Source: Candidatus Gastranaerophilales bacterium (GTDB lineage Bacteria > Cyanobacteriota > Vampirovibrionia > Gastranaerophilales > Gastranaerophilaceae). From it: a stretch of DNA of 56,442 bases. Below, one piece after another: positions 8,227 to 48,107 of the stretch. Every line of letters begins with the position of its first letter. Position 1 is the stretch's first letter. The stretch lies in NCBI GenBank assembly GCA_944322885.1, contig CALUQH010000013.1, positions 1 through 56,442 on the forward strand, read 5' to 3'. Both the position numbers and the translations under genes were made by a program. The notes under the pieces are model-generated. The model worked only from the letters and a program-made list of their open reading frames with translations. It was not told the DNA's origin and did not search any database.

Positions 8227-9150
8227 ATGATAAAATTAGCTGTGATGAATCAAATAGATTGTAAAAGTAAATATTATGATTTTTTAAACGAAAATATAGA
8301 AACTCTTATGGCGTTTGAAAAGTATAGGAAGAAATTACTTTTTAGGACAATTTCTAAATCTGTTTTGTTCTTTTTATGCGCATTGTTTATTTTATATGTG
8401 CTATCTTTGTTAATATTAAATAATGGTTATAATCCTGTATTATTTCCGCTGCTGCTGTTTGGATTGTATGTTTGTTTATTAAAGTCCATGAGTGTTATAA
8501 TTTTGACCGACAGAGAATATCAGCAAAAGTTTAACGAAGAAGTTTTAACTCTGATTTTACACCCTGTTGCAAATTTTAAAAATTGGCCTAAAAATCAAAA
8601 TACTGCGGCGATTCTTGATTCTCAACTTTTTTCTAATTTTGATACACAGGAAGATGCTTCTTGTATTTTTGGATATTATGGAAGTAAAAGTGTTACAATT
8701 TCTGATACCCGTCTTACATTGCCTGTAAGAGCTTCTGAGAAACCGGATTTATTTAAAGGAATTATCATTCAGGCTGAAGTTGAAAAAAATATTAAAAATC
8801 ATGTCATATTAATTTCGAAAAACGAGAAAAAGAATAATAAATATAATTGTTATAAAACCCATATTAAGGAAATTGATGAAAATTTATATACTTTTATAAA
8901 AAATGATTCTAATTTACAATTTATTTCTGATGAATTATGGCAAATTTTAAAGAAGTTTTCAGAAGTTTATTCCGCAAAGAGTTTAAGTTTTTCTTATAAA
9001 AATAATACTTTAGTTGTTGCAATGCGTCAAAGAAAAGCTATGCCATTCGGTTATCTGTTCAGGTCAATTATTAATCTAAAAAATTACGATGAATTTATTG
9101 AAAAGTTCATCGTAATTTATGAGTTGATTGATTTTATTAATAAAAATTAA
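8227..9150 (+). CDS. DUF3137-like membrane protein
   Basis: The 307-residue protein has two N-terminal transmembrane helices (about 43-65 and 70-93) and a cytoplasmic-looking C-terminal part. The pattern IFGYYGSKSVTISDTRL followed by FKGIIIQAEV resembles DUF3137 (galanin-like) proteins, whose function is unknown. No clear ribosome binding site precedes the ATG. Its 3' end overlaps the convergent GT5-like gene by 4 bp. The family call comes from recalled motif similarity. Confidence 0.6.
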   Translation: MIKLAVMNQIDCKSKYYDFLNENIETLMAFEKYRKKLLFRTISKSVLFFLCALFILYVLSLLILNNGYNPVLFPLLLFGLYVCLLKSMSVIILTDREYQQKFNEEVLTLILHPVANFKNWPKNQNTAAILDSQLFSNFDTQEDASCIFGYYGSKSVTISDTRLTLPVRASEKPDLFKGIIIQAEVEKNIKNHVILISKNEKKNNKYNCYKTHIKEIDENLYTFIKNDSNLQFISDELWQILKKFSEVYSAKSLSFSYKNNTLVVAMRQRKAMPFGYLFRSIINLKNYDEFIEKFIVIYELIDFINKN

Positions 9151-11855
9151 GCTATTTTGTCTGCTTTTGGAGTTGTTTTTTCTGATTCGAAAATTACAGG
9201 TGTTTCAGTTTTTGGCTGTGTCTGTTTTTTCCCATGTTTTTTCATATACATATATGCTGCAGTAGATAGTGCAACAACTGCAACACCCGCGCCGACGGCT
9301 GTTTTAACCCATTTATTTTTTACATTTGTAACTTCTTTTTTGGCATTTTCTACAACTTTGGCCGTTTCTTTTTTGACTGTTTCTGCAGTATTGTCTATAA
9401 TACCTCTTTTTAAATCTTCTTCCGATGCACCGACAAGACGTTTCATCTGGGTTTTATCCCTTGCTTCCCAGCCTTCATCTATGTGCCATATATCATTACT
9501 GTACATTTTATTAGCTGATTTCCCGCCGTTAAATTCATCATTGTTATGCCAGTCAAATTCTTCTTCAATGTTCTTTTTACATTTAGCAATGTAACTTGGT
9601 TTGTCATTGAAATATTCTTCTGCCATTTGTTTCAGACAGTCTGAAACTTCATCTGATGCTCTTGCAATTCTTGCATCATCAATTTTATCTGCAGGTGTAT
9701 CCCAGCTTAATTTATCAAAAGTAGGATTCATTTCGGGAGCAGTTTTGGTAAGCCAACCGTTTTCTTTGTTTGTATAATCTACGGGCCCGCCGGCTGCTGT
9801 TGCAAGATACGGTACACCTCCGGCTTTTGATTCAAACGGTGTAATACCGCAAATTTCATCTCTTGATGTGAAGATACCATGAGTTGCACAGCCTACAAGC
9901 TTGTTAGGATAACGTCCATCCGCTAACATTAGGCTTCCTTTGTATGCTCCGTTTTCTAAATTCTGGATTTCATTGAATGTATCATGAATAAGTTTCCATT
10001 CTCTTGAATTTTTATCAAACGGCAAGTCTCCCCAGCCTATTTGTAGGTTTACACGTTGTTTTATTTCTGCAGGGACATCATCTCTCATAAGGAATTTTTT
10101 GAAGCCCATAAGCGTAATCGGGAAACCTTTTTGTTCATCAGGTCTGCCCCAACCAACTATTAACATGGCGCCTTTTTTGAAATTGGCCAGACTTCCGAAT
10201 ACACTTCTTCCCTGTTCAATTTGTAAATCGTTATAAAATACTTTGTTCAAGGCCTGTTGCCCCTTTTGTTCTGCTTTTTTCAGGATATTGGTAAGCCATA
10301 CAGCGTTCTTTTCCCTATTTGCAATAATTTCTTCAATATTATGTCCGTTATATTTTAAAGGAGTAAAGCCGGATTTCTCTGCAGACAGAGTATTGTTGCC
10401 TCTGCCAAAATCACCTGTATTATTGTCCAGTCCGAGGCTGGCAGGCGTTGAACCGTTTAAGGGACTAATTGTTTCAATTTCTCTTAAATCTGCGCCAAGT
10501 CCGGGAGCTACATCCATATTCGGATTTTTCATCTGTCTGTCAAAGTTTGGGGATACTGTTCCGATGGAGGAATTATTAGGATTTACTTTTTTGGCAACAA
10601 TTGCAATTTTTGTAATATTGTATGTGCCGAAGAAATCTTTAAATTGTCCGATATAAGGATCAAATGCTTTTCTTACAAAATTTTTCTCAACTTCCGTTAA
10701 ATTATTCCATCCTTTGGCGTTAAAATTTTGTAGAAGCTCATATTGCGGATGATTTTTTATTTTTTCAACATCTTCAGGAGTGAATAACATTCTTGCAAAT
10801 GCGAAAGGATCATCTGTTGTCCCTTGATAAGGTCTTCTGGGATTATGCATTGTAAAATGGGAAATAGTTCCGTTATAGAAGCTGTTTCCTCTCGCCGATT
10901 CATCCGCAATATGGCTGAAAACGGCTGCTACCGGTCTGTCATGTCCCCAGATGCTTGCAGGATTAAAGTTCCCGAATTCTTCAGTATTCATCTGCTCTCC
11001 GGCCTTAATTACCGCACGACAGAAGTCAGAATTTATTATTTCGGAATTCACTCCCCCATGGCCTTCCGGTCCGTAACTATAAGGTTTCGGAATTTTTGCA
11101 AGTTCTGTTGTATACATCCAATAGTTTGGAGTATCAGCAAGTTTATTGTAGCTCGGATTTTCTTTCGCTATTTTAAACAGGTGATATCTGACTGTTTGGG
11201 TTTTGCCGATATCTATATCGGACATTCTTTCAAATTCGCCCTTAGCACTTGTCGGTTCTATGATACAATATTTTGAAAGGCTGTCAGCATCTTTCCCGTT
11301 TGGTTCACTTTGAATTACGTATCTCAAATTTTTCGGGTCAAAATTATGAGCTTTTGCGAATTCTTCAAGAGTTTGCCCCGGATCTCCGGATAAAAACCAT
11401 TTTGCTTCTATTTGCTCCGGTAGTTTACCGTCTTTTGTTCGTTTTACGTCTTTCAAGTAAACAAATTTGTATCCGCCTTTGGGGTTGTTGTATTCATGGA
11501 AAGGCATGATGCTCCTAACATCCAATCCTTCATTTTTTCTGAAACTTTCGGGAGCTTCTGCCGTTACAACTCCGAGACCGCCCTGGTAATCTTCCGGCAA
11601 GCCTGTTGCTTTATTTTCATACGGCAGTGAAAGTATCTGATTTATGTTTTTACTGCCGCCTGTAAAAGTAATATATGAGATCCCATGTGTTTTTAGTGAT
11701 TTATTACCGAAAAATATCGGGGGGGGGGCAACATTATATGCTGCCGGATTATAGCTGTTACCATATTGATTGGCCGTAATGTTGCTTGTTGATTTTCGGT
11801 TGTTTTCACTCCCTGCAAGCGCAGTTTGATAAGATTGAATTGGACTTATACGCAT
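9147..11855 (-). CDS. Membrane-anchored glycogen/starch-synthase-like glycosyltransferase (GT5-like)
   Basis: The 902-residue protein carries GT-B/GT5 landmarks: GGLGVV near the start of the catalytic region, GHDRPVAA (matching the catalytic HD region), TMHNPRRPYQG (compare TVHNLAYQG), GRPDEQKGF with Arg and Lys, and SRDEICGITPFESKAGGVP with the conserved Glu. The usual KxGGL lysine is replaced (YQGGL). Family enzymes are near 480 residues. This one has an N-terminal disordered region, internal insertions, a helical linker and a C-terminal transmembrane helix (TAVGAGVAVVALSTAAYMYM), so it is probably tethered to a membrane. Codons 43-46 lie on a C10 tract, in frame as sequenced. Substrate unknown. 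Confidence 0.7.
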   Translation of the reverse strand: MRISPIQSYQTALAGSENNRKSTSNITANQYGNSYNPAAYNVAPPPIFFGNKSLKTHGISYITFTGGSKNINQILSLPYENKATGLPEDYQGGLGVVTAEAPESFRKNEGLDVRSIMPFHEYNNPKGGYKFVYLKDVKRTKDGKLPEQIEAKWFLSGDPGQTLEEFAKAHNFDPKNLRYVIQSEPNGKDADSLSKYCIIEPTSAKGEFERMSDIDIGKTQTVRYHLFKIAKENPSYNKLADTPNYWMYTTELAKIPKPYSYGPEGHGGVNSEIINSDFCRAVIKAGEQMNTEEFGNFNPASIWGHDRPVAAVFSHIADESARGNSFYNGTISHFTMHNPRRPYQGTTDDPFAFARMLFTPEDVEKIKNHPQYELLQNFNAKGWNNLTEVEKNFVRKAFDPYIGQFKDFFGTYNITKIAIVAKKVNPNNSSIGTVSPNFDRQMKNPNMDVAPGLGADLREIETISPLNGSTPASLGLDNNTGDFGRGNNTLSAEKSGFTPLKYNGHNIEEIIANREKNAVWLTNILKKAEQKGQQALNKVFYNDLQIEQGRSVFGSLANFKKGAMLIVGWGRPDEQKGFPITLMGFKKFLMRDDVPAEIKQRVNLQIGWGDLPFDKNSREWKLIHDTFNEIQNLENGAYKGSLMLADGRYPNKLVGCATHGIFTSRDEICGITPFESKAGGVPYLATAAGGPVDYTNKENGWLTKTAPEMNPTFDKLSWDTPADKIDDARIARASDEVSDCLKQMAEEYFNDKPSYIAKCKKNIEEEFDWHNNDEFNGGKSANKMYSNDIWHIDEGWEARDKTQMKRLVGASEEDLKRGIIDNTAETVKKETAKVVENAKKEVTNVKNKWVKTAVGAGVAVVALSTAAYMYMKKHGKKQTQPKTETPVIFESEKTTPKADKIA
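11719..11728 (-). repeat. C10 homopolymer tract inside the GT5-like gene
   Basis: Ten consecutive G on the + strand encode Ala43-Pro44-Pro45-Pro46 (GCC CCC CCC CCG) on the coding strand. Any length change other than a multiple of 3 would truncate the enzyme after about 42 residues. The present length is in frame. Confidence 0.9.
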
Positions 11856-13344: not shown

Positions 13345-13373
13345 TTGAAAATTTTCCAATAATATGATAAAAT
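13345..13373 (+). promoter_or_regulatory. Promoter of prepilin gene 1
   Basis: TTGAAA (13345-13350), a 17-bp spacer and TAAAAT (13368-13373), followed by AAAGGAG just before the ATG at 13404. The intact promoter and ribosome binding site support the ATG at 13404 as the real start of the out-of-frame gene. Confidence 0.75.
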
Positions 13374-13403
13374 AAATATGTTGTACACGATAAAGGAGCA
13401 GAT

Positions 13404-14230
13404 ATGAAAAAGATTTTAAATTTTGAGAAAGTCGGGGGGGGGGCACTCTAGGTTTTGCAGGAGGGTTAGAGCTCAAGAAGATAACATGTCAAGTTGTTAT
13501 CAGTGAGCGAAGTTCACTAAAAAAGAAAGTTGCCTTTACTCTTGCCGAAGTGTTAATAACACTTGGTATAATAGGTGTTATTGCTGCAATGACTATGCCT
13601 TCCTTGATTTCCAAACATAGAGAAAGAGTCTTTGTTGAACAACTAAAACAAAGTTATTCTATTTTTTCACAGGCATATTTGATGGCTATAGCAGAAAATG
13701 GTCCGGCTGATTTTTGGGACTTGGGTGAAAATGCTACTATGGAAGGAGCTGAAAAAGTTTTTGATATATTTGAACCATATTTAAGTAAAGTACAATCCTG
13801 TAGAGGAGAATCCGGATGCTTTGCTGAGAGTTATAAAACATTTAGCGGTGTGGATTATGGTTTTGCCCCTTATGATCATAGTAAGTATACAAGAGGTATA
13901 TTAGCTAATGGAGTATCATTTGCTTTTGCAAGTGGCGGAAGCGGCTGCCAACTCAGTCACGCTCCAGTATATCCGAAAATCTGTGCTGTTTTATATGTTG
14001 ATTTAAATGGTTATAAATACCCAAATAAGACAGGTGTTGATTATTTCGGATTTTATATAACTCCAAATGCAATTTTACCTATTGGGATGAAAGGATATGA
14101 TGGAGGGACAAATGGTTATACATGTCAGTATAAAGGAACTGGGCGCGGTAATGGTACCGGATGTACTGCCTGGGTATTAAGCAAGCAAAATATGGATTAT
14201 TTGCGTCGTGACATTTCCTCTGATTGGTAG
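13404..14230 (+). CDS. Prepilin-like protein 1, phase-OFF (needs one more G)
   Basis: AAAGGAG precedes the ATG at 13404. As sequenced, translation gives 15 residues (MKKILNFEKVGGGAL) and stops at TAG just after a G10 tract. The pilin frame has no start upstream of the signature apart from a GTG at 13550, and it hits TGA at 13424. One extra G (11), or 8, joins the frames into about 275 residues: a 44-residue leader ending KKKVA, then FTLAEVLITLGIIGVIAAM and the pilin body. The body keeps family features: a Cys pair (SCRGESGC), VDLNGYKYPN followed by GVDYFGF, and a late Cys pair. The body looks intact, so this is a switch rather than decay. Confidence 0.85.
13434..13443 (+). repeat. G10 tract controlling prepilin 1
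   Basis: Ten G followed by CACTCTAGG, at codons 11-14 of the leader. 13550 minus 13404 is 146, which is 2 mod 3, so exactly one added base restores the frame. Confidence 0.92.
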
Positions 14231-15007: not shown

Positions 15008-15784
15008 ATGCAAAAATTCGGTTATACTGCAATTTCGGGGGGGGCATCTCTCAGACTAGGTAAGGGTTTAAAATGGATTGCTTACTATTCATCGGAAAAG
15101 AAATGGGCTTTTACTCTTGCTGAAGTTCTTATTACGCTTGGTATAATAGGTGTTGTTGCTGCGATGACTATGCCTGCATTAATTGCAAATTATCAGCGTA
15201 AGGCTCTTGAAACCTCATTTAAAAAGTCATATTCAGTTATATCACAAGCTATGCAAAGATTAATAAATGAAGAAGGATATATCCCAAAGGCTGAAAATAT
15301 TACTGGCTATGCTGAGACTTTCCTTCTGAGAAAATATTTTATAAGTGCTATTGATTGCTTTAACAAATCGTCAGGAAGCTCCGAATCTTGTGTAAGTTCT
15401 GAAAAGTTTTCTTCATGGTTTGATAGTTTTTATAAAACTTATAATAAAAAAACATTGGCAAGCAGTGCTCACTGGTGGTTTGATGATGGTATGTTTGTTG
15501 CTGCTGACGGAAGTTTTATTTTTTTTGATAATTCAAATACCGATAATTTGCTAATAGGTGTTGATACAAACGGCAAAAAGGCGCCAAATTTATTAGGGCA
15601 TGATGTATTTTTATTTGAGCTGGATTCAGAGACAGGTGCTGTCAGGGGGTATGATGGTAACAATAATAGAGGGGATAAAGCGTCTGAATATTGTGATAGA
15701 AATGCAACTTCGGGACTTAACGGACTTTCATGTGCTTTTGAAGCACTTAAAAATCCTGATGAATATTTTAAAAATTTACCTTAA
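15008..15784 (+). CDS. Prepilin-like protein 2, in frame (G8 tract)
   Basis: The ATG at 15008 is chosen because AAAGGGAG lies just upstream; a TTG at 15002 is less likely. The 258-residue product has a 34-residue leader containing SGGASLRLGKG, encoded partly by G8 (15047-15054), then WA before FTLAEVLITLGIIGVVAAM, the prepilin cleavage/methylation site with Glu5. The body has a Cys pair (DCFNKSSGSSESC), VDTNGKKAPN followed by GHDVFLF, and a late pair (CDRNATSGLNGLSC). Eight G equals the 11-G ON length minus one codon. It is a probable pseudopilin or minor pilin with an unknown role. Its stop overlaps bioA by 4 bp. Confidence 0.85.
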   Translation: MQKFGYTAISGGASLRLGKGLKWIAYYSSEKKWAFTLAEVLITLGIIGVVAAMTMPALIANYQRKALETSFKKSYSVISQAMQRLINEEGYIPKAENITGYAETFLLRKYFISAIDCFNKSSGSSESCVSSEKFSSWFDSFYKTYNKKTLASSAHWWFDDGMFVAADGSFIFFDNSNTDNLLIGVDTNGKKAPNLLGHDVFLFELDSETGAVRGYDGNNNRGDKASEYCDRNATSGLNGLSCAFEALKNPDEYFKNLP

Positions 15785-30312: not shown

Positions 30313-31067
30313 TCATTTAAGGTTTTTAAAATAATTATTATCGGTCAGAGCAAAGTATGCACAGGTAAAGCCATTCATATTACTCGTAGATGTTTCAGAA
30401 CAGTAGGTGTCTTTCCCATAGGAAAGCCATGTATTTTCCGCTCCCACAGGTAAAACACGACCGTCTTTAGTTATATGAAACATAAATAAATCATAGCCCA
30501 TTCTATTAGGCTTTCTTTTGAAACCGTTAACATCTATTGAAACCAGAAATCCGGAAAATTGGGATTGCTCTCCCTGTTCAAAAAGGTATAATACTCCATC
30601 AGAGGTTAGGAACCCTCCATCATCAAAATATGCTCTGCTTAAAGTATTACCGTTCAGAGTTTTATAATAGGTAAATGTATCATCTTCTTCTAGCAATATA
30701 CAGCCAGTGTTATGGTTTATTTCTCCGCAATATTCGGTAGCTTTAAACTGTGCGGCAAGACGTGTACTAAAACGCGGTCCATAGTTTTCATAAGTAAAAT
30801 CCAGTTCATCTTCGCTTCTGATACTCAAGATAGCCTGCTGTAATATTGAATATTGTTTTTTGAATACCGCCTCTAGTTCCTTTTTGTTAGTGTTGTTTAT
30901 TAACGCAGGTATAGTCATAGCTGCAACTACGCCTATTATACCCAGTGTAATTAAAACTTCGGCAAGAGTAAATCCAAATTTTTTAAAATAAATACAGTTA
31001 TCTAAATTCCTTGCTATACTTGACCTTTGCGGGGGGGGGGCACTCTCAAAGCCTTGATGTTAAACAT
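30313..31067 (-). CDS. Prepilin-like protein 4, phase-OFF (needs one more C)
   Basis: AGGAGGA precedes the ATG at 31067. As sequenced, the frame reads MFNIKALRVPPPRKGQV and stops after 17 residues. The pilin frame has TAA upstream of the tract and no start. One extra C (11), or 8, restores about 251 residues: a 32-residue leader ending YFKKFG, then FTLAEVLITLGIIGVVAAM and the body. The body keeps a Cys pair (YCGEINHNTGC), IDVNGFKRKPN followed by GYDLFMF, and a late pair (CSETSTSNMNGFTC). The intact body argues for a reversible switch. Here the tract encodes Pro, and the G strand is the template strand, opposite to prepilin 1. Confidence 0.85.
31031..31040 (-). repeat. C10 tract controlling prepilin 4
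   Basis: On the + strand, G10 is followed by CACTCTC. 31067 minus 30918 is 149, which is 2 mod 3, so exactly one added base restores the frame. The word G10-CACTCT is identical to that in prepilin gene 1 but in the opposite orientation relative to coding. Confidence 0.92.
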
Positions 31068-47240: not shown

Positions 47241-48107
47241 ATGAAAAGATTATTTGAAACTGAAAATGTCGGGGGGGAGGGCACTCCTCAGCTAGGTAGA
47301 AGCAAAGATGCAAAGACGCGAAGTCGCAAAGCCAGTATCGTAAATAATACTTTCCTCCCCCGAAGAAGGGATGCAGAGAAACTCTCTTCACTGAAACGAA
47401 CTTATTGTCCTAACGTCTTAACGTCCTATCGTCTAAAGAAATGTGCATTTACCTTAGCAGAGGTCTTAGTAACCTTAGGAATAATCGGAGTTGTATCAGC
47501 AATGACTGTTCCGACATTGATGCAAAATTACCAGCGAAAAGTTTATGTAACGCAATTGCATAAAGTCTATAGTGAAATGTCACAGGCTTTATCTCTTTAC
47601 ATTACAAAAAAAAATGCTGTCAATTTAAAGGAGTCAAGATTTAATACTATTGACGGCTTGAATGATTTTATAAGTTCTCACCTTAAAGTTGTTAAAGACT
47701 GCGGTAGTGCAGTAAAAGACTGTTTTGCTTCGCAATACGGCTATATAAATTCTTCAACTGTTATATCAGGCGGTAATCCTACTTGTAATCGGGTTATCAC
47801 ACTCGCAAGTGGAGCCATACTTTGTATTGATGTTGAGAATGGTTCTGGCAGTATTAATGAAGATGACGAGCAGGAAGGCAGTACGACTAATTTAAAAGGT
47901 GCTGTCGCTACTATAGAGGTTGATGTTAATGGAACAAGCGGACCTAATATTTTCGGCAGGGATTATTTTGTTATGTTTATTGATAATGACGGTACTATAA
48001 AAGATTATGCATTTGAAGAATACGGATTAGTTACTGATTCTTCAAAAGGGTCATATACCGGTGCATTTGGCAAAATTATGGATGACGGGTGGCAGATGAA
48101 TTATTAA
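47241..48107 (+). CDS. Prepilin-like protein 5, in frame with an interrupted G tract
   Basis: AAAGGGG precedes the ATG. The 288-residue product has a very long leader (69 residues) before FTLAEVLVTLGIIGVVSAM. The leader holds VGGEGTPQLGR, encoded by G7-A-G3 (47270-47280), 11 bases with one A, which matches the predicted ON length and cannot slip easily. The rest of the leader contains short tandem repeats. The body has CGSAVKDC and VDVNGTSGPN followed by GRDYFVMF. The late Cys pair of relatives is missing. It is a probable minor pilin or pseudopilin, monocistronic and followed by a terminator. Confidence 0.85.
   Translation: MKRLFETENVGGEGTPQLGRSKDAKTRSRKASIVNNTFLPRRRDAEKLSSLKRTYCPNVLTSYRLKKCAFTLAEVLVTLGIIGVVSAMTVPTLMQNYQRKVYVTQLHKVYSEMSQALSLYITKKNAVNLKESRFNTIDGLNDFISSHLKVVKDCGSAVKDCFASQYGYINSSTVISGGNPTCNRVITLASGAILCIDVENGSGSINEDDEQEGSTTNLKGAVATIEVDVNGTSGPNIFGRDYFVMFIDNDGTIKDYAFEEYGLVTDSSKGSYTGAFGKIMDDGWQMNY
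47301..47331 (+). repeat. Heptamer-like short tandem repeat inside the prepilin 5 leader
   Basis: Units resembling GCAAAGA (GCAAAGAT, GCAAAGAC, GCGAAGTC, GCAAAG) in tandem encode a basic stretch of the leader. Confidence 0.6.
47410..47433 (+). repeat. Octamer tandem repeat inside the prepilin 5 leader
   Basis: Three tandem octamers: CTAACGTC, TTAACGTC, CTATCGTC. They are translated within the part of the leader that prepilin peptidase would remove. Confidence 0.7.

Follow-up and report, generated by a model that had tools for sequence, protein, structure and literature searches.

Ten-guanine tracts in prepilin leaders of a Gastranaerophilales bacterium: a probable default-off phase-variation system

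Why is a prepilin gene with a promoter, a ribosome binding site and a start codon read for only 15 codons, up to a stop just past a run of ten G? The question is raised by gene 1 of a 56,442-nucleotide stretch of DNA (the window); this stretch forms contig 13 of a Candidatus Gastranaerophilales genome of 1.86 Mb that is 97.7% complete. The locus is built as follows.

13345 to 13373, plus strand: sigma-70-like promoter TTGAAA-17-TAAAAT (10 of 12 matches to the consensus)
13392 to 13398, plus strand: ribosome binding site AAAGGAG, read directly
13404 to 13451, plus strand: 15-codon mini-ORF at G10, MKKILNFEKVGGGAL then TAG (ATG at 13404-13406, TAG at 13449-13451)
13434 to 13443, plus strand: G10 tract, core of the motif TC-G10-CACTCTAGG, with the G strand as leading strand
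13427 to 14230, plus strand: open prepilin frame, entered only at the tract and joined to the ATG at 13404 with 8 or 11 G
13502 to 13518, plus strand: small palindrome AGTGAGCGAAGTTCACT within the removable leader
13535 to 14227, plus strand: predicted mature pilin from FTLAEV, a long N-terminal helix followed by a beta-rich domain

The original prediction described gene 1 as switched off by a G10 tract in a removable leader, and this description of the locus was borne out. The promoter with its 17-bp spacer is consensus-like, the only start backed by a ribosome binding site meets TAG after 15 codons, and the pilin frame is closed upstream of the tract by a TGA (13424-13426) and contains no ATG, GTG or TTG between the tract and FTLAEV. 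In silico, gene 1 yields 15 amino acids at 10 G and 275 residues with AFTLAEVLITLGIIGVIAAMTMP at 11 G, the prepilin frame being open only at 8 or 11 G; the position of the tract in the removable leader was likewise supported. As in contingency loci, a homopolymer of at least 9 lies at the 5' end of the ORF, and unit changes in its length toggle, in silico, between a full-length and a truncated product. The G10 tracts of the window are not due to chance, with 10 (overlapping) matches to eight G observed and 0.16 expected.

The predicted product carries a type IV prepilin signature (A/G, F at +1, E at +5 and a hydrophobic helix; FTLAEV), and matches the Pfam N_methyl model at 23.5 bits (cut-off 21.2; 13532-13594), a match that was not reported in a scan starting from 13523. 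An AlphaFold2 model of the pilin (17 window and locus sequences; mean pLDDT 84.7) has a helix at residues 3-55 and several strands in a beta-rich domain, a predicted build like that of a type IV pilin, but a Foldseek search of the PDB with this model gave no significant solved match. From its sequence, the pilin is expected to be located at the cell surface. Comparison of mature gene 1 with a 92% identical orthologue (L278), which is syntenic and has an upstream neighbour matching that of gene 1 by sequence, gave a dN of 0.043 and a dS of 0.38 (dN/dS about 0.11), and the body of gene 1 is intact. Both this orthologue and a second syntenic one with 69% identity (L280) have a tract of exactly 10, are off and share the same register, with leaders quite different from that of gene 1. 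Thus, the pilin is under purifying selection although it is off at 10 in three species, which disfavors the pseudogene that had been named as an alternative. In three further relatives (L279, L281 and L282), the leader is short, of the form MKKAF|TLAEV, and lacks a tract, so that leaders come in two types, of which one bears a tract.

Gene 1 is one member of a genome-wide system. All 66 G tracts of at least 9 in this genome, counted on both strands, were inspected individually, and 59 of them precede an FTLAEV-type pilin motif, that is, they lie in prepilin leaders, where almost all are exactly 10 long; the remainder include glycosyltransferases, i.e. surface genes. The prepilin tracts comprise 34 of type A (G in the coding strand) and 25 of type B (C in the coding strand). 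Of 48 assignable G10/C10 loci, 44 are off and need a length of 11 (or 8) to open, and among the five G11/C11 prepilins three are on, as are those with G8 and with GGGGGGGAGGG. The Pfam N_methyl model found 91 pilin starts genome-wide, none of them with an internal stop. A loose motif, TC-G10-CRNTYTNAGC, surrounds the tract in both orientations and also in a few other genes; no match to it was found in viral contigs. The window itself holds four further examples.

15008 to 15784, plus strand: second prepilin gene, with G8 (15037-15044), in frame (on)
30313 to 31067, minus strand: prepilin gene with C10 in the coding strand (G10 on the plus strand at 31031-31040), off at 10 and open at 11, MFNIKALRVPPPPQ...FTLAEV
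47241 to 48107, plus strand: prepilin gene with the interrupted tract GGGGGGGAGGG (11 nt), in frame (on), N_methyl E 7.1e-5
11719 to 11728, plus strand: G10 in a non-pilin ORF (9147-11855, minus strand; 902 aa; L027), in frame at 10

One further interrupted tract was seen among the loci (L175), and a scan of the genus for interrupted tracts returned G11 only. Eight non-pilin genes carry the same motif in their coding body and are in frame at 10 (L001, L016, L024, L027, L037, L104, L140 and L149). From their sequences, we take L016 and L037 to be glycosyltransferases and L024 to be an FrhB-like ferredoxin protein.

The leaders have further features. Small palindromic repeats like AGTGAGCGAAGTTCACT lie in frame within the removable leader of gene 1 and at L033, L053, L135, L177, L201 and L283; they resemble Rickettsia palindromic elements, and leaders reach well over 100 residues, apparently via insertions of such palindromes. 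A second recurring leader segment (about YNSDMKHH; L013, L034, L048, L057, L060, L071, L188 and L248) corresponds to TATAAT-like DNA followed, after about 6 bases, often by an in-frame ATG, and could be a leaderless internal promoter and start in some prepilins.

Tract length is sharply defined. Along 396 kb of this genome, taken in leading-strand orientation, G runs of lengths 5 to 9 number 51, 3, 1, 1 and 1, followed by 33 at exactly 10 and 3 at 11, and there are no C runs of 7 or more. In the genus, 119 prepilin loci could be assigned; lengths 8, 9 and 11 occur among them (1, 4 and 8 loci), and 10 dominates (106 loci). In Campylobacter jejuni, 27 tracts in four clonal isolates showed lengths of 8 (10 cases), 9 (49), 10 (38), 11 (10) and 12 (1), varying among isolates at 18/27 loci with no length locking (PMC5135748); 49/108 are thus at the modal length there, compared to 106/119 here. 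Loss of MutS as a source of tract instability was ruled out, as MutS_V is present in all 33 genomes of the genus. Its presence may account for the tight tract lengths and means that switching need not be fast. As to why the length is 10 and the register nearly always +1, our guess is that 11 reverts to 10 quickly, giving brief on states, and that 9 would be too stable. A type B prepilin gene with C10 (G000:C31:60460-61336) directly adjoins mutS, a mismatch-repair gene expected to influence slippage. Several metagenome-assembled contigs stop no more than about 60 bases from a G10 tract (G004:C71:45, G004:C72:45, G074:C31:33 and G254:C96:27; L153, L158, L160 and L164), a pattern expected if tract length is polymorphic or if sequencing across the tract is poor. 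By contrast with the clean G10 motif, G runs 12 to 38 long that were seen in other genera where a contig ends or next to Ns (L194, L196 and L213) have the look of sequencing artefacts.

The register, too, is largely fixed. Across about 30 genomes of the genus, 110/119 loci open at 8/11 (49/54 in this genome alone), independently of the ATG-to-tract distance modulo 3 and of type A or B, although the 119 loci include paralogues and hence are not independent, so that p-values computed on them are too optimistic. A stop within 16 nt past the tract was found in the frame read at 10 in 105/110 same-register loci, compared to 22/110 in the 9/12 frame; in this genome, where sampling was independent of the flank, the corresponding counts were 45/49 and 9/49. 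Loci from other genera were chosen by the G10 pattern, which makes tract lengths there uninformative. As for their registers, genus g7 has the 8/11 register in 22/22 loci, genus g5 is mixed (7 loci open at 11, 5 on at 10), and genus g3 does not share the 8/11 direction, with 7 loci opening at 9/12 and 4 on at 10.

The tracts are also polar with respect to replication. In seven genomes of two genera, 101/103 neighboring tract pairs in the same contig point in the same direction, with prepilin genes on both strands, and GC skew identifies the G strand as the G-rich, leading one in 17/18 stretches; the single polarity switch inside a contig (contig 3) coincides with a flip in GC skew. GC skew alone was ruled out as the cause of this polarity, since short runs are near-balanced (341 G4 to 280 C4; 51 G5 to 31 C5) and runs of at least 7 stand at 39 to 0. 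Because the Gs stay on the leading strand, genes co-directional with the fork are type A, with G10 and a Gly leader, and head-on genes are type B, with C10 and a Pro leader. The mRNA base thus changes with gene direction while the DNA strand is constant, which points to a process in DNA, not in RNA, and the constant placement of the Gs on the leading strand hints that DNA replication itself works the switch. We found no earlier reports of leading-strand polarity in poly-G switches in the open-access literature. This polarity and the +1 register with its lock at 10 are the two oddest features of the system, and both were absent from the original prediction.

Taken together, we consider it likely, with a probability of about 0.7, that gene 1 and its kin are default-off phase-variation loci switched by replication slippage. 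Transcription and translation of a prepilin gene would begin normally, and at the standard 10 G the ribosome would reach the stop just past the tract, so that no pilin would be produced. Replication slippage to 11 (or 8) G would join the leader to the pilin frame, and prepilin peptidase would then remove the leader together with the glycines encoded by the tract, leaving a mature pilin identical at every in-frame length. With about 59 prepilin genes wired alike, each cell would express a small, changing subset, and most of the about sixty prepilin genes are probably off until tract length changes. This explanation is favored by the concentration of the tracts in prepilin leaders, with surface genes among the rest, by lengths of 8, 9 and 11 beside 10, with some of these genes on, by pilin frames that are intact though off at 10, and by a strand polarity that fits a DNA-level process. 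Moreover, a switch, unlike recoding in a fixed direction, would be expected to yield loci that open at 9/12, as several do in g3. Against it stand lengths far more uniform than in C. jejuni and a single register where free slippage should randomise; indeed, the register bias rules out random-register phase variation as a complete account. Phase variation, as originally proposed, is retained as the best explanation of the gene 1 tract, the switching itself being something that we infer.

A less likely, tentative second reading takes the tracts not as repeats that drift freely but as a length-locked (exactly 10), leading-strand-polar DNA element, in which a replication-coupled process would set or select the length and about 60 prepilins per cell would be held one base out of frame, as a coordinated and not an independent switch.

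Programmed recoding at a fixed G10/C10 is unlikely. Prepilins would be made either through an extra base added by slipping RNA polymerase or through -1 ribosomal frameshifting, and the nearby stop would end the unshifted product, which agrees with tracts locked at 10, with the single register in the genus and in g7, with a close stop in the unshifted frame only and with purifying selection on off genes in three species. Known genes of this kind (IS elements, Shigella mxiE, dnaX; PMC1088944, PMC3711429) similarly combine a homopolymer, a stop behind it in the unshifted frame and a fixed direction, but they rely mostly on A/T runs or a fixed mRNA sequence. No slippery mRNA sequence is conserved here (G10 in 34 and C10 in 25 prepilin mRNAs of this genome), and what is conserved is the DNA strand. 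Moreover, the fixed direction of slippage holds in the genus and in g7 but fails in g3, where 7/11 loci require the opposite shift, in-frame G8 and interrupted forms exist, and non-pilin genes keep the same tract in frame.

An improbable reading takes the tract as a leading-strand-polar protein-binding or recombination site that is tolerated in removable leaders, with a secondary effect on frame. The conserved core in both gene orientations and in unrelated genes, the strict strand polarity and the length locking would suit such a site, whereas its concentration in pilins (59/66), which is not the spread of FtsK-orienting or Chi-like sites, its variable flanks and a strong register bias that would need a separate cause do not.

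About as improbable is a pilin start downstream of the tract (internal or leaderless) that would make the upstream mini-ORF a regulatory leader only: 53/101 off loci do have an ATG, GTG or TTG in the pilin frame past the tract, 21 of them with a ribosome-binding-like site, and TATAAT-N6-ATG-like segments were seen by eye in some leaders, but 48/101, gene 1 included, have no start codon from the tract to the cleavage site, in some cases (L045 3790) the prepilin starts almost directly at the tract, and an independent start would not need the conserved register to the upstream ATG.

Finally, homopolymers are error-prone and several contigs end at G10 tracts, but the possibility raised at the outset that a true length of 11 is under-called as 10 is very improbable and was ruled out by the eight non-pilin genes in frame at exactly 10, whose reading frames would not have survived the systematic loss of a G, the more so as the same tract and register picture recurs in about 30 separately assembled genomes, at least some with metaSPAdes/MEGAHIT-style contig names, and as lengths of 8, 9 and 11 are called too.

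Returning to phase variation by slippage, a search of the literature on Gastranaerophilales or Melainabacteria together with phase variation found nothing relevant, and related switches are known elsewhere. The tract of Neisseria pilC reportedly sits in a removed signal peptide, much as the tracts here lie in a leader. Like them, it is a poly-G/C frame switch affecting type IV pili, but pilC encodes a pilus-associated protein, not a pilin, and Neisseria tracts spread from G9 to G20 with 15-19 poly-G tracts per genome (PMC5953494), compared to 66 here with a spike at 10. C. jejuni shares with this genome many surface-structure genes whose frame is set by G/C tracts, of 8-12 in its case (PMC5135748). 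A close parallel is the sortase-pilus switch of Bifidobacterium breve UCC2003 (bbr_0113 and bbr_1889; Penno et al. 2022, PMC9187656), also in a gut commensal, in which a short upstream ORF and a pilin ORF are split by a G10/G11 tract, the annotated state is off and slippage joins the two; one pilus locus is G10 and off in about 93% of cells. Poly-G slippage that switches a pilus gene, with the majority off, is a mechanism class already demonstrated in that species. The B. breve system has two loci, Sec/LPXTG pilins and a productive change of mainly -1, whereas the system here, which would work in a similar way, is far larger in scale, with about 59 type IV prepilin-like genes in both orientations, a +1 register and a G strand that stays the leading one. 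New here are the spike at exactly 10 and the finding that, in nearly all stretches, it is the leading strand that bears the Gs.

For annotation, these results are a warning that dozens of prepilins in these metagenome-assembled genomes will be annotated without their leaders or overlooked. If the proposed switch is real, a little-studied, uncultured lineage of gut Cyanobacteriota would possess an unusually large default-off repertoire of surface proteins, with about 59 switchable prepilins in 1.9 Mb, in which the coding of the leader (Gly or Pro) would track gene direction so that the G run stays leading. It would also make testable the question of whether bacteria tune the mutation rates of contingency loci by replication strand.
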